Source: Ralstonia sp. UNC404CL21Col | GTDB taxonomy: Bacteria; Pseudomonadota; Gammaproteobacteria; Burkholderiales; Burkholderiaceae | DNA: 64,000 nucleotides | Direction of reading: 5' to 3' | NCBI RefSeq assembly: GCF_000620465.1 | Contig: NZ_JIBE01000007.1 | Location: forward strand, 1-64,000 | Shown here: positions 5,447 through 31,839 of the stretch, in pieces | Layout: each line of letters begins with the position of its first letter | Numbering within the stretch: the stretch's first letter is position 1 | The notes under the pieces: generated by a model | The model's input: the letters and a program-made list of their open reading frames with translations, nothing else | Databases searched by the model: none | Told to the model about the DNA's origin: nothing | Translations under genes and position numbers: made by a program

Positions 5447-5821
5447 TCAGTGCAGCATGCGCGGCATCACCAGCGCAAATTCGGGGATGGGCGCCTCGAA
5501 ACGGTGGCCATCTTCGGCCACGCAGAAATATTCGCCGCGCATCGTACCCACGGGCGTCTTGATGGTCGCCCAGCTCGTGTACTCGAAGGATTCACCCGGC
5601 GGCAGCAGCGGCTGATGGCCGACCACGCCGAGGCCGTTCACTTCCTGCACCTGCTCTTCGGCGTCGGTAATCACCCAGTGGCGTGAGATGAGCTGGCTCG
5701 GCACGTCGCCGGTATTGCGAATGGTGATGGTGTAGGCGAAGGCGTAGCTGCCCTGCTCCGGCTCGGATTGCTCCGGCAGGTAGCGCGTCCGGACCTGGAC
5801 GGTGAGTTCGTAGCTCGGCAT
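5447..5821 (-). CDS. apaG: ApaG domain protein
   Basis: The start at ATG 5821 gives 124 residues, the standard ApaG length. An in-frame TTG four codons upstream was rejected. The protein has the ApaG beta-sandwich pattern: an N-terminal YELTVQVRTRYLPEQS, the RNTGDVPSQLISRHWVITDA strand pair, and a C-terminal GTMRGEYFCVAEDGHRFE. ApaG is a small fibronectin-III-like protein linked in enterobacteria to cobalt resistance and Ap4A metabolism, but its biochemical role is not settled. No ksgA or apaH lies beside it here. Confidence 0.92.
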   Translation of the reverse strand: MPSYELTVQVRTRYLPEQSEPEQGSYAFAYTITIRNTGDVPSQLISRHWVITDAEEQVQEVNGLGVVGHQPLLPPGESFEYTSWATIKTPVGTMRGEYFCVAEDGHRFEAPIPEFALVMPRMLH

Positions 5822-5951
5822 GACGATCCACAATAAGAATGGCGCCCATTGTGCGGCATGGCCGTGGCACCGGCAAGGCGCGAGCGGACGGTCGATCCGG
5901 CTAAAATAGCGACCTCCTTTGCGCCTGCGCGCGCCTTATCCGTCTCCCATC

Positions 5952-6680
5952 ATGTCCGTCGCCATCGATCCGTCCGGTTTCCGCATCGCCCCGTCCATCC
6001 TGTCCGCCGACTTTGCCCGCCTGGGCGAAGAAGTGCGCCGCGTGCTCGAATCGGGCGCCGACTGGATCCACTTCGATGTGATGGACAACCATTACGTGCC
6101 GAACCTGACCGTGGGCCCGCTGGTCTGCGAGGCGATTAGGCCGCACGCACAAAAGGATGGCAAGCCGGTGCCGATCGACGTGCACCTGATGGTCAGCCCG
6201 GTCGATCGCATCATTCCGGACTTCGCCAAGGCCGGCGCCGACCTGATCACCTTTCACCCGGAAGCTTCCGAGCACATCGACCGCTCGCTGGCGCTGATCC
6301 GCGACAACGGCTGCAAGGCCGGCCTGGTCTTTAACCCTGCCACGCCGCTGCACTATCTCGATCACGTGATGGATCGCCTGGACATGGTGCTGATCATGTC
6401 GGTCAACCCGGGCTTTGGCGGCCAATCGTTCATTCCCGAAGCGCTGAACAAGCTGCGCGCGGTGCGCCAGAAGCTCGACGCATACCAGGAAAAGACCGGC
6501 CGGAAGATCCTGCTGGAAATCGACGGCGGCGTGAAAGCCGACAACATCGCCGAGATTGCCAAGGCCGGCGCCGACACCTTCGTGGCCGGCTCGGCGGTGT
6601 TCGGCAAGCCGGATGCGGATGGCGGCTACCGCGGCACCGTTGGCGCGCTGCGCCAGGCCCTGGCTGGCGTGACGGCATGA
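5952..6680 (+). CDS. rpe: Ribulose-phosphate 3-epimerase
   Basis: This 242-residue TIM-barrel enzyme interconverts ribulose-5-phosphate and xylulose-5-phosphate in the pentose phosphate and Calvin pathways. Family motifs are [15 protein letters not shown], the metal-site block [23 protein letters not shown] and the phosphate-binding [14 protein letters not shown]. The ATG at 5952 was chosen because it begins just before the conserved core. An upstream in-frame start at 5919 would add a non-conserved tail. The stop overlaps the gph start by 4 nt (ATGA), so the two genes are translationally coupled. Confidence 0.95.
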
Positions 6681-7405
6681 CGGGCACGCTGCCGGCCGGA
6701 GCAGTCCGAGGCGTCATCATCGATCTGGACGGGACGATGGTCGACACGGCCGGCGACTTCCACGCCGCCATCAACGCCATGCTCAAGGCGCTGGGCGCCA
6801 CGCCGGACATGCCGGCCGAGGAAGTGGTGGGCTATGTCGGCAAGGGGTCGGAAAACCTCGTGCGGCGCGTGCTCGACGCACGCCTGCCGCCTGCCCAGGC
6901 CAACAGCCGCTTTGCGGAGGCTCTCGAGGCCTATCAGCGCGCGTACATCGCCATCAACGGCCAGTACGTAAGTGTTTACGACGGCGTGCGCGAAGGGCTG
7001 GCCGCATTGCGCGACCTTGGTCTGGCGCTTGCATGCGTGACCAACAAGCCACACGATTTCACGCAGCCGCTGCTCGCGCAGCTGGGGCTGGATGCCAGCT
7101 TCGACCTGGTCTACCCCGGCGATGCGTTCCCGTACCGCAAACCCGACCCCTATCCGATGCTGCGCGTGGCGGAGGCGTTTGGCCTGAGGCCGGCTGAAAT
7201 CGTGGCCATCGGCGACTCGGAAAACGACGCCCGGGCGGCTCGCGCGGCCGGCATGCGGGTGCTTGCGGTGCCGTATGGCTACAACCACGGCCAGCCTATA
7301 CAGGACGCCGGAGCCGATGCTATAGTCGACACACTTTTTGCGGCAGCCGAGTTGATCCGGCCCTATGCAGAGCCACACAACACAGTCTCTGCCGCTTCCA
7401 ACTGA
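6677..7405 (+). CDS. gph: Phosphoglycolate phosphatase
   Basis: This 242-residue HAD-superfamily phosphatase has motif [13 protein letters not shown] near the N-terminus, motif II in CVTNKPHDF and motif III/IV in [11 protein letters not shown]...[12 protein letters not shown]. Gph dephosphorylates 2-phosphoglycolate from DNA repair or RuBisCO oxygenation. The rpe-gph pairing with overlapping codons is common in proteobacteria. The gene runs directly into the trpE leader region: an extended -10 box (TGCTATAGT) lies inside its 3' end and a candidate leader ORF starts 6 nt after its stop. Confidence 0.93.
7318..7326 (+). promoter_or_regulatory. Possible extended -10 promoter for the trp leader transcript
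   Basis: TGCTATAGT fits the extended -10 pattern TGnTATAAT and lies inside the 3' end of gph, about 85 nt before the candidate leader ATG. No convincing -35 is visible, as expected for extended -10 promoters. The link to trp transcription is inferred from position only. Confidence 0.3.
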
Positions 7406-7411
7406 CGATCC

Positions 7412-7498
7412 ATGTTCCTGAATCGCAAACGCGTCGACGCTGGTGGTGACCGGGGGGCCTGGCCCTGGCGGCCCTGGCACGCCCTCGTCCGGGCGTAA
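7412..7498 (+). CDS. Candidate Trp-rich leader peptide upstream of trpE
   Basis: A 28-codon ORF begins 6 nt after the gph stop, in the same frame, and ends with TAA. Its middle reads AWPWRPWHA, with tryptophan codons at 17, 19 and 22. Three Trp codons in six, directly ahead of the first gene of tryptophan biosynthesis, is the hallmark of an attenuator leader peptide. Weak points: there is no good ribosome binding site (reinitiation after gph would be needed) and the stretch is GC-rich with CCTGGC iterations that could give TGG by chance. A hairpin at 7641-7665 followed by CTTTT could be the terminator. Confidence 0.45.
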   Translation: MFLNRKRVDAGGDRGAWPWRPWHALVRA

Positions 7499-7640
7499 GC
7501 GTTTGCACGGCTGCTGATCGTTCTTCCCCGGTTTCGGCATTCTGGCGCGTCATGAGCGCGCCGCCCAAGCCACCCTCGCGTCTCCTGCCCCAAACGCTGA
7601 CCGCCCGCCGGTCTTCCGCCTGCCCGCTATCGGCTGCGGA

Positions 7641-7670
7641 CGACCCTTGCGGGATCGCACGGTCGCTTTT
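7641..7670 (+). terminator. Possible attenuator hairpin in the trpE 5' region
   Basis: CGACC (7641-7645) pairs with GGTCG (7661-7665) around an inner TGCG-GGAT-CGCA stem, followed by CTTTT. The T tract is short and the hairpin is about 140 nt beyond the leader stop, further than in classical attenuators. A simpler stem ACGCCC-TCGTCC-GGGCGT at 7479-7496 overlaps the end of the leader ORF. The rest of 7499-7806 has no supported gene. Confidence 0.3.
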
Positions 7671-7806
7671 ACGACGTTCGCGCGTTCCCATCCCTGATGT
7701 TCTGCTAACGTTCCGACGGCATCATCGACGCTCTTGCGTTTGCCGTGGACCGAACGCATGCCGGCGGGCGAGCACCTGCCCGCCCGGCGAATCGACCTGA
7801 CCGCTC

Positions 7807-9336
7807 ATGACCGAACTCGAATTCAAATCGCTGGCCGACCAGGGCTACAACCGCATTCCGCTGATTGCCGAGGCATTGGCCGACCTGGAGACGCCGCTGT
7901 CGCTGTATCTGAAGCTGGCGCAATCGCACGACCGCGGCACGCACACGTTCCTGCTGGAATCGGTGGTGGGCGGCGAGCGCTTCGGGCGCTACTCCTTCAT
8001 CGGCCTGCATGCGTGCACGCTGCTGCGTGTGAAGGGCAATCGCACGGAAGTCGTCACCGACGGCAAGGTGGTGGAAACGAACGAAGGCAATCCGCTGGAC
8101 TTCATCGCCGCCTTCGAGCGTCGCCAGAAGGTGGCGCTGCGCCCGGGCCTGCCGCGCTTCTGCGGCGGCCTGGCCGGCTATTTCGGCTACGACGCCGTGC
8201 GCTTTATCGAGCCCCGCCTGGCCGAGACCGCCCCGCCCGACGATCTGCAGCTGCCCGACATCCAGCTCATGCTCTGCGAAGAGCTGGCCGTGATCGACAA
8301 CCTGTCCGGCAAGCTCTACCTGATCGTCTACGCCGATCCGTCGAAGCCCGAGGCGTATTCGCACGCCAAGCAGCGCCTGCGCGCGCTGCGCACCAAGCTG
8401 CACCAGCCGGTGGATGTGCCGGTGACATCGCCGTCGGTGCGCACCGACACCATCCGCGAGTTCGACAAGGCGGACTACATCACCGCCGTGCTCAAGGCCA
8501 AGGAATACATCGCTGCCGGGGACATGATGCAGGTGCAGATCGGCCAGCGCCTGGTCAAGCCGTTCCGCGATGCGCCGCTGTCGCTGTACCGCGCGCTGCG
8601 TTCGCTGAACCCGTCGCCGTACATGTACTTCTACAACTTCGGCGACATGCAGATCGTCGGCGCGTCGCCGGAAATCCTGGTGCGCCAGGAAGAGCGCCGC
8701 ATCCCGGCATCCACCAACGGCAACGGCGCCGACGAATCCGCCCGCATCGTGACGATCCGCCCGCTGGCCGGCACGCGCCCGCGCGGCAACACGCCCGAGC
8801 GCGACGCAGAACTCGCCACCGAGCTGCTCAACGACCCGAAGGAAATCGCCGAGCACGTCATGCTGATCGACCTGGCGCGCAACGACATCGGCCGCATTGC
8901 CGAGATCGGCTCGGTCAAGGTGACGGATCAGATGGTCATCGAGAAGTATTCGCACGTGCAGCACATCGTCAGCTCCGTCGAGGGCCGCCTGAAACCCGGC
9001 ATGACGAACATGGACGTGCTGCGCGCGACCTTCCCGGCGGGCACGCTGTCGGGCGCGCCCAAAGTGCGCGCGATGGAGATCATCGACGAGCTGGAGCCGG
9101 TCAAGCGCGGCATCTACGGCGGTGCCGTCGGCTACCTCTCGTTCTCGGGCGAGATGGATCTGGCGATCGCGATCCGCACCGGCATCATCAAGGACGGCAA
9201 TCTCTATGTGCAGGCCGCCGCCGGCGTAGTGGCCGATTCGGACCCGGATGCCGAATGGAGGGAGACCGAACACAAGGCGCGCGCCGTGCTGCGTGCGGCC
9301 GAGCAAGTGCAAGACGGCCTCGACGCCGATTTCTGA
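7807..9336 (+). CDS. trpE: Anthranilate synthase component I
   Basis: This 509-residue protein converts chorismate with ammonia to anthranilate, the first committed step to tryptophan. The N-terminal feedback site [18 protein letters not shown] is intact, so inhibition by tryptophan is expected. The chorismate-binding half has [15 protein letters not shown], the ASPEILV strand, [26 protein letters not shown] and [19 protein letters not shown] short polar stretch ([11 protein letters not shown]) sits before the IRPLAGT motif. Component II (trpG) follows after 16 nt. The ATG at 7807 has a weak ribosome binding site. Confidence 0.97.
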
Positions 9337-23852: not shown

Positions 23853-24947
<1,095 letters not shown>

Positions 24948-24962
24948 CCCGCACTGGTCCCT

Positions 24963-24994
24963 AAAAGCCCCGCCTCGCCTGCGGGGCTTTTTTC
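24963..24994 (+). terminator. Rho-independent terminator after ychF
   Basis: AAAAGCCCCGC (24963-24973) pairs with GCGGGGCTTTT (24981-24991) around a 7-nt loop, followed by T's. It separates ychF from the sigma-54-linked signalling module. Confidence 0.9.
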
Positions 24995-25131
24995 ATGGCC
25001 GCGCGCCTGAAAATGTGGCCCCGCGGTTGTAAGGTTGAGGCGGCCCGGCATCACTTTTTTACACGCGAGCGAAATCGCCCCTGCGACTTTGATGCTCGCC
25101 AACGGGCGTCACTGCGCCACTTTCGCGTCCC

Positions 25132-25146
25132 TGGCACGCCGGTTGC
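25132..25146 (+). promoter_or_regulatory. Consensus sigma-54 (-24/-12) promoter for the phytochrome-like kinase operon
   Basis: TGGCAC (25132-25137), a 5-nt spacer and TTGC (25143-25146) match the sigma-54 consensus exactly, with the GG and GC dinucleotides 10 nt apart. The predicted start near 25158 leaves a 5' leader of about 100 nt before the kinase ATG at 25260. Sigma-54 promoters need an enhancer-binding activator; none is encoded nearby. No good sigma-70 promoter is visible in the 312-nt gap. Confidence 0.65.
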
Positions 25147-25259
25147 GTAGCCCACGGCGGATACGCTGAACCCCGGCAGGCTCGACGCCCGGGGCAGCCC
25201 GCCGCTCCCGCCTGGCACGTTCAGCCGAGGCACTTGGGACGGCGCACTCGCCCAACGCC

Positions 25260-27548
25260 ATGAGTTCGCAATCGCCCCCGCCCTTGTCTGCAGTTGACGA
25301 CATCGACGCCTCGCCCGGCATCGGCAGCAACGCTGCCATCCAGTCGCGCGGTGTGTTGCTGTGCCTGTCCGAACCCGATCTGTGCATCCATCAGGTCAGC
25401 GAAAACCTGGAGACTGCGCTGGGGATACCGCTGGCCTCCGCGCTGCAAGGGCCCGTCGAACGTGTGACCGGCAGCGCGGGCCGTGAGGTGCTGGAGCGCG
25501 CCGTGGCTACGCATAGCATCGACGGCCATCCGCTCTATATCGGCACGCTGCAGACGCCGCACGGGCACGCGCTCGACGCGGTGGTGCACCGGCACAAGGG
25601 CACGCTGATCCTGGAGCTGGAGCCCGCCGTGCATGCGGCCGACGGCGCGTTTGCGTCGATGTACCCGCTGGTGCGCACGTTCGTCGCCAGCCTGCAGGCC
25701 GTCAACACGGTCGATGCGCTGACGGACGTGGCCGCGCGCGAGGTTCGCCGCCTCACCGATTTTGGCCGCGTCACGATCTACCGGATCGACAGCGATGGTT
25801 CCTTGCAGGCGCTCGCCGAAGCGCGTGACGCTGCCTATGACACCTTGGCCGGCACACACCTGCGTGGCGCCGGCATGACGCCGGAATTGCGCAGTCTGTA
25901 TAGCCACAACCCGTTGCGTCTGGTGGCGGACGTCGACGACACGCCCGTCGGTCTAGTGCCGCCGCTGCATCCCTCCACCGGACGGGCGACCGATCTGGCC
26001 TACGCAGCCCTGCGCGCCGCGTCCGAAGCACAGCGCGAAACCATGCGCGGCATGGGCGCGCGGGCTTCCCTCACGCTGGCGCTGACCGTGCGCGGCGATC
26101 TCTGGGGATTGATCGTCTGTCACCATGCCACGCCGTGTTCGCTGTCGTTCGAAGTGCGCACGGCGTGCGAACACCTGGCGCAGATTCTGTCGCTGCAGAT
26201 CGAAGCGAAGGAAGACCGCGCGGAGATCGCGCACCGCCTGGAACTGCGACGCATCCTGGTACGCCTGCTGGCGGCGATGGCCGACCGGGACCATTTCCAC
26301 GAAGGCCTGCTCGAGCACCCCGCCGATCTGCTGGGCTTTGCGTCAGCCAGCGGCGCGGCCATCGTGCGTCAGGGCGAGTGTGTGCGCATCGGCGCGGCGC
26401 CAGACGAGGCGAGCATCCTGCGGCTGACCGAATGGCTTGCCAAGGAACACCCCGGCGAGGTGTTCCACACCGACCGGCTGGCCAGCACCTATCCGGACGG
26501 CGCCGCGCTACTGCCGCAGGCCAGCGGCGTGCTGGCCGTGCAGGTTTCCCAGCTGCATCGCCACTACGTGCTGTGGTTCCGCCCCGAAACGCCGCAGACC
26601 GTGCACTGGGCGGGCGACGCGCCGGACGCAGCCGTCGACCACGACAGCCGCAACATGCTGGGCCGCACACGCCACTGGCAGCAGCACATCGCGCACACTT
26701 CGCGCCCGTGGCGCACCAGCGAAGTGGAAACTGCCGCGGAGTTCCGCTACGCCGTCCTGAACATCGTGCTGCGCCGCGCCGAAGAAGCTGCGGAACTGAC
26801 GAGCGAGCTGCGCCGCGCCAACCACGAACTCGAAGCGTTTTCGTATTCCGTGTCGCACGACTTGCGCGCACCGCTGCGCCATATCGCCGGCTATGCCGAA
26901 CTGCTCGACGAGATGGAGGGCCAGCACGTCTCGGAGCGTGGGCGACACTTTCTGCAGACGATCTCGGAGTCGTCGCGCTTTGCGGGCAAGCTGGTCGACG
27001 ATCTGCTCACCTTCTCGCAGATGGGCCGCGGCGCGCTGCACCTGACCGATGTCGACCTCGCGCAGCTCGTACGCGGCGTCGTGCGCGACCTCACGATGGA
27101 CCAGGGCCGGCGCCATATCGAATGGAACATCGCCGCGTTGCCGGTGGTGCGCGCCGACCCGGCGTTCCTGCAACTGGCGATGCGCAACCTGCTTTCCAAC
27201 GCCGTGAAATACACGCGTGACCGTGATCCGGCGCGCATCCATATCGACGCCGAACAGACCGACACCGAAACCATCGTGCGCATTGCCGACAACGGCGTCG
27301 GCTTCTCGATGGAATACGTAGCTAAGCTGTTCGGCGTGTTCCAGCGGCTGCATCGCATGGATGAGTTCGAGGGCACCGGCATCGGCCTGGCCAATGTGCG
27401 GCGCATCATCGATCGCCACGGCGGCCGCACCTGGGCCGAGGGCGAGCTTGATCGCGGCGCGACGTTCTACTTCGCGCTGCCGCGCTCGCCCGACCCGCTG
27501 GCGGCATCCGGAGCCGGCCTCCGCTCGCCCGCGACCCGCGATGCCTGA
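25260..27548 (+). CDS. Bacteriophytochrome-like histidine kinase lacking bilin-binding residues
   Basis: This is a 762-residue protein with PAS-GAF-PHY sensory domains and a C-terminal kinase. The phytochrome signature LWGLIVCHH is at residues 281-289. The kinase has the phospho-acceptor His533 (YSVSHDLRAPLRH), the N box LLSNAVKYT and G boxes (DNGVGF, GTGIGL). Key chromophore residues are changed. There is no Cys at the N-terminal attachment site (residue about 16; the following IQPHG motif reads IQSRG). The DIP motif is replaced by GMTP (205-208). The bilin-pocket His before the MGV-type stretch is Gln258. The protein therefore probably does not bind biliverdin in the usual way. No heme oxygenase gene is adjacent. 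It is cotranscribed with a response regulator and a hybrid kinase. Confidence 0.88.
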   Translation: MSSQSPPPLSAVDDIDASPGIGSNAAIQSRGVLLCLSEPDLCIHQVSENLETALGIPLASALQGPVERVTGSAGREVLERAVATHSIDGHPLYIGTLQTPHGHALDAVVHRHKGTLILELEPAVHAADGAFASMYPLVRTFVASLQAVNTVDALTDVAAREVRRLTDFGRVTIYRIDSDGSLQALAEARDAAYDTLAGTHLRGAGMTPELRSLYSHNPLRLVADVDDTPVGLVPPLHPSTGRATDLAYAALRAASEAQRETMRGMGARASLTLALTVRGDLWGLIVCHHATPCSLSFEVRTACEHLAQILSLQIEAKEDRAEIAHRLELRRILVRLLAAMADRDHFHEGLLEHPADLLGFASASGAAIVRQGECVRIGAAPDEASILRLTEWLAKEHPGEVFHTDRLASTYPDGAALLPQASGVLAVQVSQLHRHYVLWFRPETPQTVHWAGDAPDAAVDHDSRNMLGRTRHWQQHIAHTSRPWRTSEVETAAEFRYAVLNIVLRRAEEAAELTSELRRANHELEAFSYSVSHDLRAPLRHIAGYAELLDEMEGQHVSERGRHFLQTISESSRFAGKLVDDLLTFSQMGRGALHLTDVDLAQLVRGVVRDLTMDQGRRHIEWNIAALPVVRADPAFLQLAMRNLLSNAVKYTRDRDPARIHIDAEQTDTETIVRIADNGVGFSMEYVAKLFGVFQRLHRMDEFEGTGIGLANVRRIIDRHGGRTWAEGELDRGATFYFALPRSPDPLAASGAGLRSPATRDA

Positions 27549-27574
27549 TCGTTCTTTCTACGTTCATTGTCACC

Positions 27575-28042
27575 ATGCTCAAACCCATCCTGCTCGTCGA
27601 AGACAATCCGAACGACCTCGAGCTGACGCTGCTGGCGCTGGAGCGCAGCCAGCTCGCCAACGATGTGGTCGTCACCCGGGACGGCGCCGAAGCACTGGAT
27701 TACCTGCACGCGCGCAATCTCTACGCGCAGCGCGTGCCCGGTAATCCGGCCGTGGTGCTGCTCGACCTGAAGCTGCCGAAGGTCGACGGGCTGGAAGTGC
27801 TGGCGGAGATCCGCGCAACGCCCGCGCTCAAGAGCCTGCCGGTGGTCATGCTGACCTCGTCGCGCGAAGAAACGGACCTGCTGCGCAGCTACGAACTCGG
27901 CGTCAACGCCTACGTGGTCAAGCCGGTGGAGTTCCGGGCGTTTGTCGACGCGATTGCCGACCTGGGCGTATTCTGGGCAGTGCTCAACGAACCGCCGCCC
28001 GGCTCCACGCGGGCACGCCGCACGTTGCTGCCGGCGAGCTAA
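27575..28042 (+). CDS. Single-domain response regulator (Rcp1/CheY-like)
   Basis: This 155-residue receiver-only protein has the acidic pair at LLVEDNPNDLELT, the phospho-acceptor Asp in VVLLDLKLPKVDG, the Thr/Ser in VMLTSSREE and the Lys in VVKPVEF. The YLH-type loop (ALDYLHARNLYAQRVPGNP) is typical of the regulators paired with phytochromes (Rcp1 type). It begins 26 nt after the kinase stop and 25 nt before the hybrid kinase. It has no output domain, so it probably relays phosphate to another protein. Confidence 0.92.
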   Translation: MLKPILLVEDNPNDLELTLLALERSQLANDVVVTRDGAEALDYLHARNLYAQRVPGNPAVVLLDLKLPKVDGLEVLAEIRATPALKSLPVVMLTSSREETDLLRSYELGVNAYVVKPVEFRAFVDAIADLGVFWAVLNEPPPGSTRARRTLLPAS

Positions 28043-28067
28043 CCGCCCATCCGGAGCATCCGCCCCC

Positions 28068-30026
28068 ATGCCCAATCTGCAATTGCTGCTGGTCGAAGAC
28101 AATCCGCTCGACGCGGAACTCACCCGCGCACGGCTCGAAACCGCCAACCTGCCAGCCGACACGACGCTGGTCGACAACGAGACGGACTTCATCGCCCAAC
28201 TCAGCGCGCGCACCTTCGACGCCATCCTGGCCGACTACATGCTCCCGCAGTTCACGGGGGCGGAGGCGCTGGACATTGCGCGCCGCATGGCGCCGCAAAC
28301 GCCGTTCATCTTCGTATCGGGTGCGCTGGGCGAGGAGCACGCGGTCGACATGCTCAAGCGCGGCGCCACCGATTACGTCATCAAGCAGCGCCTGCAGCGC
28401 CTGCCCGTGGTGCTGCTGCGGGCGCTGGCCGAAGCGGCCGAACGCCGCCAGCGCATCGCCGCCGAAGCCGCGCTGCGCGAAGCGGAAACGCATTTCCGCC
28501 TGCTGATCAACGCGCTCAAGGAGCACGCCGTGCTCTCGCTCGACCCGCAGGGCATCGTGCGCACGTGGAACGCGGCGTCGCGCAGCATTCTTGGTTATGC
28601 GCGTGAAGACATCCTCGGCAAATCGGCGGAGATTCTGTATCCGCAGGCCGCGCGCGAGGCGGGCGAATTCCAGCGCAAGCTCGAACGCGTGCGCCGCGAA
28701 GGCAGCCTCACCGACGACCGCTGGATGCTGCGCAAGGACGGCACGCCGTTCTACGCATCGAGCGTGGTCACGGCCATCCACAACGAGACGGGGCAACTGG
28801 TCGGCTTCTCGAAGATCATCCGCGACTCCACCGAAGAGCGCATCGCGGCCGACGCCCTGCGCCGCGCGAAGGAAGAAGCCGAGACCGCCAACCACGCCAA
28901 GGACCACTTCCTGGCCGTGCTGTCGCACGAGTTGCGCACGCCGCTCACACCCATCCTGACCGCCGTGCATCTGCTGGAAATGCGCCAAGACCTGCCGGCG
29001 TATGTGGTGGCGCAGCTCGAAGTCGTGCGCCGCAATGCCGAGCTGGAAGCGCGCCTGATCGACGACCTGCTCGACATCACGGGCATTGCGCGCGGCAAGC
29101 TGGCGGTGAGCTTTGCGCTGGTCGACCTGTATCCGCTGCTGGAAAGCACGCTGGAGATGTCGCGCAACGACATGCAGGCCAAGCGGCTGTCGCTCAAGAC
29201 GCGCTTCGAGGCGGGCCGCAGCCGGCTGTATGCCGACGGGGCGCGCATCCAGCAAGTGATCTGGAACCTTGTGCGCAACGCGGTCAAGTTCACACCCGAA
29301 GGCGGCGCCATCGAGGTGCGGGTCTGGAACCCGTCGCCCTCTGCCGTTGCCGTGTCCGTGAAGGACAACGGCATCGGCATCGAACCCGAAGCGCTGCCGC
29401 GCATCTTCTCGGCGTTCGAACAGGCCGATGCATCGATCACGCAGCGTTTTGGCGGGCTCGGCCTGGGCCTGGCGATTGCCTATGCGCTGGTGCAGAAGCA
29501 TGAAGGTTCATTGATTGCCGAGAGCGCCGGCCGCCACGAGGGCGCCACGTTCACGCTCACCCTGCCGCTGGCGACCGAGATGGCGCAACCCGAGACACCG
29601 CCCTCCCCGCCCATGCCGCGCAAGCAGCCGACGCGCGGCCTGCATGTGCTGCTGGTAGAAGACAACGCCGATACGGCCGAAGCCATGTCGCAGATGCTGG
29701 AGATCCTCGGCCACAGCGTCACCGTTGCCAACGGCGCGCGCTCGGCCATGCAAGCCGCGGAGTCGGGTGCGTTCGATCTGCTGATCAGCGATATTGGTCT
29801 GCCGGACGGCAGCGGCCTGGACGTGGTGCGCGTATTCGCCGAGAGGCAGGCTGCCCCCTCGATCGCAATCACCGGCTACGGTATGGAAGACGATATCGCC
29901 CGGTGCCGTGACGCGGGCTTTACGGATCACCTGACCAAACCGGTGGATTTCAAGCGGCTGGAGACACTCCTGGCGGGCTATCTGGCCGCGCGCGATGCGC
30001 GAACCGCAGGCGTGGACGCAAGCTGA
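28068..30026 (+). CDS. Hybrid sensor histidine kinase (REC-PAS-HisKA-HATPase-REC)
   Basis: This is a 652-residue cytoplasmic protein. The N-terminal receiver (LLVEDNPLDAELT, phospho-Asp in AILADYMLPQFTG) spans residues 1-120. A PAS/PAC domain with NALKEHAVLSLDPQGIVRTWN spans about 140-260. The HisKA domain has LAVLSHELRTPLTP, and the ATPase domain has NAVKFTPEGG, DNGIGIEPEALP and GGLGLGLAIAYAL. A C-terminal receiver begins HVLLVEDNADTAEAM and has DLLISDIGLPDGSG. No membrane segments are present. Two receivers flanking one kinase fit a phosphorelay with the preceding response regulator and phytochrome-like kinase. It is the last gene of the three-gene module. Confidence 0.93.
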   Translation: MPNLQLLLVEDNPLDAELTRARLETANLPADTTLVDNETDFIAQLSARTFDAILADYMLPQFTGAEALDIARRMAPQTPFIFVSGALGEEHAVDMLKRGATDYVIKQRLQRLPVVLLRALAEAAERRQRIAAEAALREAETHFRLLINALKEHAVLSLDPQGIVRTWNAASRSILGYAREDILGKSAEILYPQAAREAGEFQRKLERVRREGSLTDDRWMLRKDGTPFYASSVVTAIHNETGQLVGFSKIIRDSTEERIAADALRRAKEEAETANHAKDHFLAVLSHELRTPLTPILTAVHLLEMRQDLPAYVVAQLEVVRRNAELEARLIDDLLDITGIARGKLAVSFALVDLYPLLESTLEMSRNDMQAKRLSLKTRFEAGRSRLYADGARIQQVIWNLVRNAVKFTPEGGAIEVRVWNPSPSAVAVSVKDNGIGIEPEALPRIFSAFEQADASITQRFGGLGLGLAIAYALVQKHEGSLIAESAGRHEGATFTLTLPLATEMAQPETPPSPPMPRKQPTRGLHVLLVEDNADTAEAMSQMLEILGHSVTVANGARSAMQAAESGAFDLLISDIGLPDGSGLDVVRVFAERQAAPSIAITGYGMEDDIARCRDAGFTDHLTKPVDFKRLETLLAGYLAARDARTAGVDAS

Positions 30027-30057
30027 GCCGCGCCAGAATGCCGCAGTGGCAGTTGCC

Positions 30058-30300
30058 CTAGCGGCGCACCAGGCCCCATGCCGCAGGCAGCAGCATGGCG
30101 CCCACCACGGCGGCCGTCCACGCCATGATCTGCCCATCCGCATACAGGTGCGCGAATTGGCCGCTGTAGTAACCGACCAACGCGCCAATCCCACCCGTCA
30201 CCAGCGCAGGGAGCCAACCCAAGCGTTTGCCTGTGGGATGCAGCCAACGCGCCGCCACGCCCACCGCCAGCCCGATCCACAGCGGCCCGATCCACCCCAT
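30058..30300 (-). CDS. Small GlsB/YeaQ-like membrane protein
   Basis: This 80-residue protein has three hydrophobic helices: residues 3-18, 29-45 (LPALVTGGIGALVGYYSG) and 58-76. The Gly-rich second helix resembles the GlsB/YeaQ/YmgE transglycosylase-associated, stress-linked membrane family, although sequence identity looks low. It converges on the hybrid kinase gene (31 nt between stops) and is divergent from hemA. The function of the family is poorly defined. Confidence 0.6.
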   Translation of the reverse strand: MGWIGPLWIGLAVGVAARWLHPTGKRLGWLPALVTGGIGALVGYYSGQFAHLYADGQIMAWTAAVVGAMLLPAAWGLVRR

Positions 30301-30531
30301 GCCTGTTCTCCGTATTGCTCTTGAGCGATTCAACTGGACGCGTACCTTAGCGCAGGACGGCGCAGAAGGCCACGGAGAAGGCCGCATGGACGCACTGCCG
30401 GTTACGTGACGAATAATCGACATTCGTCTGCACGTATCACCAGATTTGACCTGCCTCCTGCTCATCCGGGGGCCGGGCGTTATAATCCAGAGTGCTCAAA
30501 ATTCGTGCCGTTCCTTAACCGGCCGCCCCAC

Positions 30532-31839
30532 ATGCAGTTGCTGACCCTCGGAATCAACCACCACACTGCGCCGCTTTCCCTGCGCGAGAAGGTGGCGTTT
30601 CCGCTCGAGCAGCTGAAGCCCGCACTGGGCACGCTGCGCCAGCATCTGCCGCACCTCCGCAGCACGGCCGAAGCCGCCATTCTGTCCACCTGCAATCGCA
30701 CCGAAATCTACTGCGCGACCGACGGCAACCTGCCTGAGCAGACCGCGCACGAGCATGCGATTCGCTGGCTGGCGCAGCACCACAACATCGACGCCGGCGA
30801 ACTCGCGCCCCATGTGTATTCGCTCGGCCAGTCGCTGGCGGTACGTCACGCGTTTCGCGTGGCCAGCGGGCTCGATTCGATGGTGCTGGGCGAGACGCAG
30901 ATCCTCGGCCAGATGAAAGACGCCGTGCGCACCGCCACCGAGGCGGGCGCCCTCGGCACGTACCTGAATCAGCTGTTCCAGCGCACCTTTGCCGTGGCCA
31001 AGGAAGTGCGCGGCACGACGGAGATCGGCGCGCATTCCGTGTCGATGGCCGCCGCCGCCGTGCGCCTGGCGCAACGCATCTTCGAATCGATTGCGGATCA
31101 GCGCGTCCTGTTCATCGGCGCCGGCGAGATGATCGAGCTGTGCGCCACGCACTTCGCCGCGCAGACGCCGCGCGAGGTGGTGATCGCCAACCGCACGCTG
31201 GAACGCGGCGAAAAGCTCGCCGAATCGCTGTCGAACCAGGGTCTGAATGCCCGCGCCGTGCGTCTGGCTGAACTGCCGACCAAGCTTGCCGAGTTCGACA
31301 TCGTCGTCTCGTGCACCGCCAGCACGCTGCCCATCATCGGCCTGGGCGCCGTGGAGCGCGCCATCAAGCAGCGCCGCCACCGCCCGATGTTCATGGTCGA
31401 CCTGGCCGTGCCGCGCGACATCGAACCTGAAGTCGCACGCCTGTCCGACGTGTTCCTCTACACCGTGGACGACCTGGGCGCCATCGTGCGCGAAGGCAAC
31501 GCGCTGCGGCAGGCTGCCGTGGCCCAGGCCGAGGCCATCATCGAAACGCGCGTGCTGAACTTCATGCACTGGCTCGATGCGCGCAGCGTGGTGCCGATCA
31601 TCCGCGATCTGCACGCGCAGGCTGAAACGCTGCGCCAAGGTGAACTGGAACGCGCTCAGCGCATGCTCGCGCGTGGCGACGATCCGGCGCTGGTGCTCGA
31701 AGCGCTGTCGCAGGCGCTGACCAAGAAATTCCTCCACGGCCCGACGCATGCGCTCAACCACGCGCAGGGCGAAGGCCGCGAACAACTCATCGACCTGCTG
31801 CCGGCGCTGTTCCGCCAGTCCAGCCACTCCGAGCGCTAG
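30532..31839 (+). CDS. hemA: Glutamyl-tRNA reductase
   Basis: This is a 435-residue enzyme of the C5 pathway to 5-aminolevulinate, reducing Glu-tRNA to glutamate-1-semialdehyde. The catalytic Cys54 is in [12 protein letters not shown]. The N-terminal [20 protein letters not shown], the [20 protein letters not shown] linker and the NADPH-binding [17 protein letters not shown] are typical. The ATG at 30532 starts the conserved sequence; the longer frame upstream was rejected. A perfect TATAAT at 30481-30486 is a good -10. prfA follows, as in many proteobacteria. Confidence 0.96.

Follow-up and report, generated by a model that had tools for sequence, protein, structure and literature searches.

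Within the window (the whole 64,000-nucleotide stretch of DNA that was analysed), three genes are arranged head to tail: P0001, which encodes a histidine kinase derived from a phytochrome, P0002, which encodes a single-domain response regulator, and P0003, which encodes a hybrid kinase (Table 1). An earlier note on this DNA had described a PAS-GAF-PHY kinase, a CheY-like regulator and a REC-PAS-HK-REC hybrid kinase, a layout that is borne out by Pfam. For P0001, the domains scoring over the cut-off are PAS_2 (residues 24-123), GAF (152-315), PHY (330-507), HisKA (525-590) and HATPase_c (633-742). Downstream of the trio lie a small membrane-protein-like frame on the minus strand (30058-30465) and a glutamyl-tRNA reductase-like (hemA) gene (30532-31839), both named from sequence alone.

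Table 1. Features upstream of and within the kinase locus (window positions), and two phytochrome loci from other family genomes (contig positions).
Feature	Position	Strand	Remarks
Candidate activator site: a pair of conserved blocks, TTGTAAGGTTGAGGCG and GCATCACTTTTTTACA, containing a TGTAA/TTACA dyad	25027..25063	+	some 95-130 nt upstream of the expected start
Sigma-54-type -24/-12 promoter (likely), TGGCAC-GCCGG-TTGC (TGGCACGCCGGTTGC)	25132..25146	+	exact match; the ATG (25260) lies 113 nt downstream
Leader stem-loop, GCUG-AA-CCCCGG...CCGGGG-CAGC	25165..25198	+	just past the expected start; in 10/12 aligned upstream regions
P0001, phytochrome-derived histidine kinase	25260..27548	+	762 aa; Pfam and ortholog alignments
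P0002, single-domain response regulator	27575..28042	+	155 aa; receiver Asp64; one Pfam Response_reg
P0003, hybrid kinase, REC-PAS-HisKA-HATPase-REC	28068..30026	+	652 aa; Asp56, His287, Asp575; Pfam
L256 (G194 contig 1), pocket-less phytochrome kinase	5580-8249	minus	open frame, then receiver
L257 (G151 contig 41), phytochrome	6019-8394		His for Tyr176, Ser for Tyr263, damaged PRxSF

In the output half of P0001, the phospho-acceptor His533 and the ATPase motifs are intact. The motifs SVSHDLRAPLR, DNGVGF and GTGIGL are found in all 12 orthologs from the genus, and NLLSNAVKY is exact in eight of them and reads NLLSNAIKY in the remaining four. By sequence, P0001 is matched best in the PDB by bacteriophytochromes, and among the records covered by a phytochrome search the closest named matches to its sensor are from 'Burkholderiaceae bacterium 26' (89%) and Ralstonia sp. 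SET104 (83%). The genus to which the window belongs is apparently Ralstonia. An AlphaFold model made with a 30-row alignment (mean pLDDT 80.1, pTM 0.60) shows the phytochrome module fold, and Foldseek matches it to several phytochrome sensor modules with a TM-score by target of 0.76-0.93 (Agp1 0.89, FiDCB 0.93), the fit to full-length chains being poorer (TM 0.57-0.59 and rmsd 17-19 for the top two).

The residues that form the bilin pocket present a different picture. PMC11316798 lists Cys16, Asp203, Tyr259, His256, Tyr172, Phe199, Arg250, Arg218 and the PRxSF motif as key residues of PsBphP1, and PMC7164956 lists Asp207, His260, Tyr263, Ser257, Ser272, Ser274, Arg254, His290 and Arg466 for DrBphP; the same two sources supply the roles of the propionate residues (Arg222, Arg254, Ser257 and Ser272) and of His290. 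As the earlier note had stated, P0001 carries the motif LWGLIVCHH (281-289), reads IQSRG at residues 27-31, has Gln258, and is without the attachment Cys and the DIP Asp. Alignment with bacteriophytochromes upholds these losses and extends them to the 12 genus orthologs (Cys, His and Tyr in 12/12, Asp in 11/12). No genus kinase has a biliverdin-binding Cys ahead of the PAS domain (0/12). In all 12, the equivalent of Phe203 is Leu or Trp, that of His260 is Gln, and that of Tyr263 is Thr, Ala or Pro and never Tyr, and the equivalent of Asp207 is Gly or Ser in 11, the Asp being kept, at position 205, in G001. The PRxSF motif of the tongue is also broken in 12/12, the Ser-Phe being gone and the sequence reading GRT--RH or similar, a form in which the Arg of PRxSF may still be present.

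Other parts of the pocket are retained. Equivalents of Arg222, Arg254, Ser257 and His290 are present in all 12 genus kinases, those of Ser272 and of Tyr176 in 11 each, and the Ser274 position is Thr in all 12. The comparison set was a locus alignment of 49 of 80 named loci and 18 from a genome search; for the cysteine and pocket counts, removal of two duplicated genus loci and of five loci from cyanobacteria left 12 genus loci and 48 others (two of the 48 identical). In these 48, all 11 residues considered are kept, Phe203, Asp207, His260 and Tyr263 included. Judged from this alignment, the lost side of the pocket is the one predicted to serve attachment, photochemistry and coupling to the tongue, and the kept side is the one predicted to hold the propionates. 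Thus, the claim that the kinase had lost its bilin pocket stands for the attachment and photochemistry residues and is too strongly worded for the propionate-holding side, which is kept in the genus. The invariance of the anchors is by itself modest evidence, because half of the GAF positions (102/191) are invariant within the genus anyway.

The enzyme that makes the pigment is likewise missing from view. No heme oxygenase was detected with Pfam PF01126 in any of the 16 genus genomes. Because PF01126 misses a genuine heme oxygenase neighbour gene in G031, a model of our own was built from nine family sequences, and a search at E 0.1 again returned none in 16/16 genus genomes. This model was positive in 6/6 controls, which are not fully independent, some model rows being from or identical to genes of, for example, G031, G024 and G172, and in 62 of the 65 non-genus family genomes that have phytochromes. 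A point against the loss of light sensing is that biliverdin could be supplied from outside the cell. The kinase might also still hold biliverdin non-covalently and sense light, as the retained fold and residues (Arg222, Arg254, Ser257 and His290 in 12/12, Ser272 in 11/12) would permit. This last reading is very unlikely, since it must contend with the joint loss of His260, Tyr263, Phe203 and the Cys in all 12 kinases, with the broken tongue motif, and with the lack of a heme oxygenase match in the 16 genomes. The residues lost in 12 orthologs, together with the enzyme unseen in 16/16 genomes, are best explained by a loss of red-light sensing, in agreement with the earlier proposal of an input other than red light.

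The distribution of the genes suggests that the kinase travels with the hybrid kinase. Of the 16 genus genomes, 12 (the window's own included) carry a kinase ortholog, with 77-93% identity for the other 11, and a PHY domain is found in the same 12. P0003 has orthologs (88-98% identity) in precisely these 12, whereas in each of the four remaining genomes its closest match reaches 37-38% identity, and P0002 is 94-100% identical across the 12 loci. Both kinase and hybrid kinase are missing from G003, G005, G006 (88% complete) and G013. From these co-occurrences, the kinase and hybrid kinase set seems to have been gained or lost as a unit. Outside the genus, 41 of the 53 loci searched have a receiver 67-81% identical to P0002, and all seven Caballeronia loci that carry the hybrid kinase show the gene order bphO-bphP-RR-hybrid. 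Apart from the missing bphO, the operon of the genus resembles this Caballeronia arrangement. A case that weighs against the blind reading is a locus from a Planctomycetota metagenome-assembled genome (L058), which has a canonical pocket, a receiver and a hybrid kinase (41%), with no heme oxygenase in its 10.7-kb contig.

To place the genus in context, phytochromes were surveyed in 299 family genomes, an even draw from a larger group, with a match cut-off of E 1e-60. Matches were found in 77 of the 299, 65 of them non-genus. The 113 matches yielded 111 that were used (12 genus, 99 other), G238 contig 410 and G190 contig 278 being dropped for internal stops. Among the 99 non-genus phytochromes, the Cys, the Asp and the His are each kept in 98, the Tyr in 97 and PRxSF in 96. 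The residue losses in the genus go beyond chance, because they are common to 12 orthologs while 98 of the 99 other family phytochromes keep Cys, Asp and His. A broader test used 71 positions conserved in at least 95% of 95 canonical family sequences, with G194, G151, G225 and G250 (the last with a reading-frame break) set aside as exceptions. Nineteen of the 71 positions are changed in all genus members. Four motif segments, picked after the motifs had been seen, hold 17 of the 19 lost versus 5 of 35 kept conserved positions, and a list of pocket positions drawn up from general knowledge gives a weak contrast (8/19 lost versus 5/35 kept, p 0.04).

Three of the 65 non-genus genomes have no heme oxygenase match, and these differ in the state of their phytochromes. 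In the case of G194, all five markers (Cys, Asp, His, Tyr and PRxSF) are lost and Gln replaces His260, as in the genus, with 21 of the 71 positions changed. Its phytochrome, on these residues, is an independent second pocket loss in the Burkholderiaceae, and the kinase is altered at Arg222, Ser257 and Ser272 as well. The G151 phytochrome is partly decayed, with 10 of 71 positions changed, and is possibly a pocket loss in progress. The phytochrome of G225 (contig 28, L258) is intact and canonical, with PRERF for PRxSF and 0 of 71 positions changed. For the 95 canonical sequences the median is 0 and the maximum 9, a spread that is partly the result of selecting them. Missing heme oxygenase is associated with five-marker exceptions (Fisher's test, p 9e-5), and clear decay (at least 10 of 71) is seen in 2 of 3 genomes without the enzyme versus 0 of 62 with it (p about 0.001, calculated by hand). 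A strict rule of heme oxygenase loss is contradicted by G225, unless its assembly has a gap there; because its phytochrome changes at none of the 71 positions, decay need not follow immediately where the enzyme is missing.

The genus proteins also stand apart by descent. In a tree of 65 proteins made with a quick method, they group together as a single clade with a support of 100. Its stem, 0.85 in length, exceeds every other inner branch of the proteobacterial rows and is equalled by the end branch of L113. This clade sits among canonical Burkholderiales proteins with a support of 80 and in a tentative order. The ratio of GAF to HK distance is 1.35 between the genus and other family members versus 0.87 among those others, and between genus members the distances in the sensor domains are 2.3 to 2.9 times those in the HK domain. 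Median pairwise dN/dS among the 12 orthologs is 0.20 for PAS, 0.13 for GAF, 0.20 for PHY and 0.08 for HK, far enough under 1 to show purifying selection. These values fit a relaxed or changed constraint on the sensor. That the operon is a decaying set of pseudogenes, as its absence from 4 of the 16 genomes might suggest, is very unlikely, and we regard this reading as the least probable of those considered: the frame is open across all five domains in 12/12 kinases (the stop near residue 758 in G015 falls at the end), dN/dS by domain is 0.08-0.20, and the partner genes are 88-100% identical.

Expression of the trio would begin at a sigma-54 promoter. Site scans used a sigma-54 consensus and scoring weights of our own, and the exact -24/-12 match that had been claimed about 114 nt upstream of the kinase gene is present (Table 1). 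The pattern match alone means little, because its genome-wide count is at chance level, with 16 exact matches versus 17 for a reversed-pattern control in the 5.09-Mb genome (11 contigs). More telling is its conservation. Nine bases (GGCA, G and TTGC) never vary across the 12 genus upstream regions, nor does their spacing, versus 46 of 248 full columns (19%) invariant overall, and in every region the aligned site outscores all others. The exact pattern is found in 3 of 12 regions, and the base following TTGC is G in 10 of 12. The genome has two rpoN genes (Sigma54_DBD) and 17 sigma-54 activator matches, 12 of them strong, none being in the contig of the window (contig 6). As for a linked or AlgB-like activator, an NCBIfam scan of six of the 12 strong activators gave a single protein that passes a cut-off, that of the NtrC models, and the idea of such a partner was dropped.

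The site could still be a chance match, with another promoter in use, as the genome-wide count and the lack of a linked activator would allow. This alternative is improbable given the invariant core and the following scans: among 500 simple shuffles of the kinase's own 320-nt upstream region, three reach a score of 19.5 and none 20.5, and no sigma-70 promoter was found at 24900-25300. Upstream regions of outgroup genes, 11 before bphO (two identical) and 13 before bphP, have best site scores of at most 18.0, and thus the outgroup genes examined hold no sigma-54 site of equal score, which sets the genus operon apart from them. The sigma-54 control proposed in the earlier note is therefore likely at the level of the promoter, with a core conserved in 12/12 and two rpoN genes to serve it, although the pattern by itself, at 16 versus 17, gave no such assurance; that the control is of the nitrogen or stress type, as the note also proposed, is conjectural.

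Further conserved elements flank the promoter. The two blocks upstream of it have 16-column conservation of 0.901 and 0.896 versus a mean of 0.756 in the 12-species upstream alignment, and by their position are a candidate activator site. The most conserved stretch upstream of the kinase gene is 25161-25206, present in 10 of 12 species. The leader stem-loop has a six-species consensus fold of 12 pairs, none with a two-sided change, and the folding energy of the 116-nt leader is unexceptional (z -0.59). In the Rfam scan of 24900-30600, there was no match at any family's gathering score.

Taken together, we put at roughly three in four the probability that this is an operon for a blind phytochrome kinase, still in use and expressed from a sigma-54 promoter. 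Its ancestor was probably a bphO-bphP-response regulator-hybrid kinase set, as in present Caballeronia. In the stem of the genus, bphO would have been lost and the Cys, Phe203, Asp207, His260, Tyr263 and PRxSF would have decayed, the order of these events being conjectural, while selection continued to maintain the fold, the kinase and both partner proteins. Transcription would have come under the sigma-54 promoter, yielding the three proteins together. The kinase would autophosphorylate at His533, and the phosphate would most likely pass to Asp64 of the receiver and to the hybrid kinase in a relay independent of light.

If the kinase is blind, its new input becomes the question, and here we lean towards either a small anionic ligand bound on the retained propionate anchors, or no ligand at all with control by expression. 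The first is favoured because the propionate anchors are kept. In its fullest form, which is put forward tentatively, a red-light receptor was converted into one for an anionic ligand other than a bilin by dropping attachment, photochemistry and tongue while keeping the carboxylate-holding half, with bphO deleted and a sigma-54 promoter gained; loss of bphO would repeatedly free Burkholderiaceae phytochromes from light (in the genus, in G194 and perhaps in G151), and blind phytochromes may recur as a class. The second is a variant of the blind reading and is similarly tentative. It holds that the sensor has no ligand and that output is set by sigma-54 expression and by the hybrid kinase, which carries a PAS domain of its own, and it draws on the strong conservation of the promoter and on the 2.3- to 2.9-fold greater distances of the sensor domains. 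The GAF dN/dS of 0.13 argues against it, as do the anchors, which are invariant or nearly so in the genus, whereas blind G194 has changed Arg222, Ser257 and Ser272.

A third variant, redox sensing through cysteines, is rather doubtful. Cys35, Cys303 and Cys374 are invariant in 12/12 genus kinases, and Cys35 is rare elsewhere (4/48). There is also a precedent in print: Vuillet et al. 2007 are said to have described RpBphP4 of Rhodopseudomonas palustris as a natural phytochrome turned from light sensor to redox sensor. However, Cys303 (40/48) and Cys374 (20/48) are common in relatives with a full pocket and need not be switches, and no Cys pair is tied to pocket loss. RpBphP4 is reported to be a naturally occurring bacterial phytochrome that lacks functional bilin chemistry, and in this it resembles the genus kinase; it differs in that the loss in the genus spans 12/12 orthologs and is accompanied by the absence of heme oxygenase.

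Compared with canonical bacteriophytochrome kinases (DrBphP, PsBphP1, Agp1 and those of the Caballeronia operons), the kinase of the genus shares the domain order, the sensor fold, the adjacent receiver and the propionate anchors, and, with Caballeronia, the hybrid kinase. It differs from them in lacking the Cys, His260, Tyr263 and Phe203, in the loss of Asp207 in 11/12, in the broken PRxSF, and in that the searches detected no heme oxygenase. Phytochromes that are photoinactive yet functional have been described before. For instance, FphB of Aspergillus fumigatus is a phytochrome-like histidine kinase without the PAS Cys and the GAF and PHY motifs, described in PMC12607886 as photoinactive with a function in the cell; unlike the genus kinase, it is fungal, a single case alongside a photoactive partner, and has no operon or sigma-54 promoter. 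RpBphP2 and RpBphP3 of R. palustris, according to PMC6879726, are required for a response that can do without their sensing of light quality, but they retain such sensing under other conditions. For R. pseudosolanacearum GMI1000, PMC8282871 gives a LOV protein as the sole putative photoreceptor. RprR (mBio 2025) and Rsp0254 (Sci Rep 2021) were considered as identities for P0001 and ruled out, both being LOV proteins. The evolutionary pattern in this genus was not found described: among the matches listed from the open-licence literature, no account of a genus-wide loss of bilin pocket and heme oxygenase in Ralstonia was found.

The locus would thus be a case in which a sensor has apparently switched its input and kept its relay, the pigment enzyme and photochemistry residues being gone, the anchors and kinase kept, and a sigma-54-type promoter present. 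Genes annotated 'bacteriophytochrome' in this genus are not to be taken for light sensors, and the pattern suggests an easy check on genomes, which combines heme oxygenase with five residues. If loss of bphO does repeatedly free phytochromes from light, annotation may still be labelling a recurring class of blind proteins as photoreceptors. The input of an apo-phytochrome kinase becomes testable through a set of natural variants, including the independent second case. The most divergent genus member, G001 (locus L012), has Asp207 kept, His for Tyr176 and Val for Ser272, a mix of residues that suggests stepwise loss.
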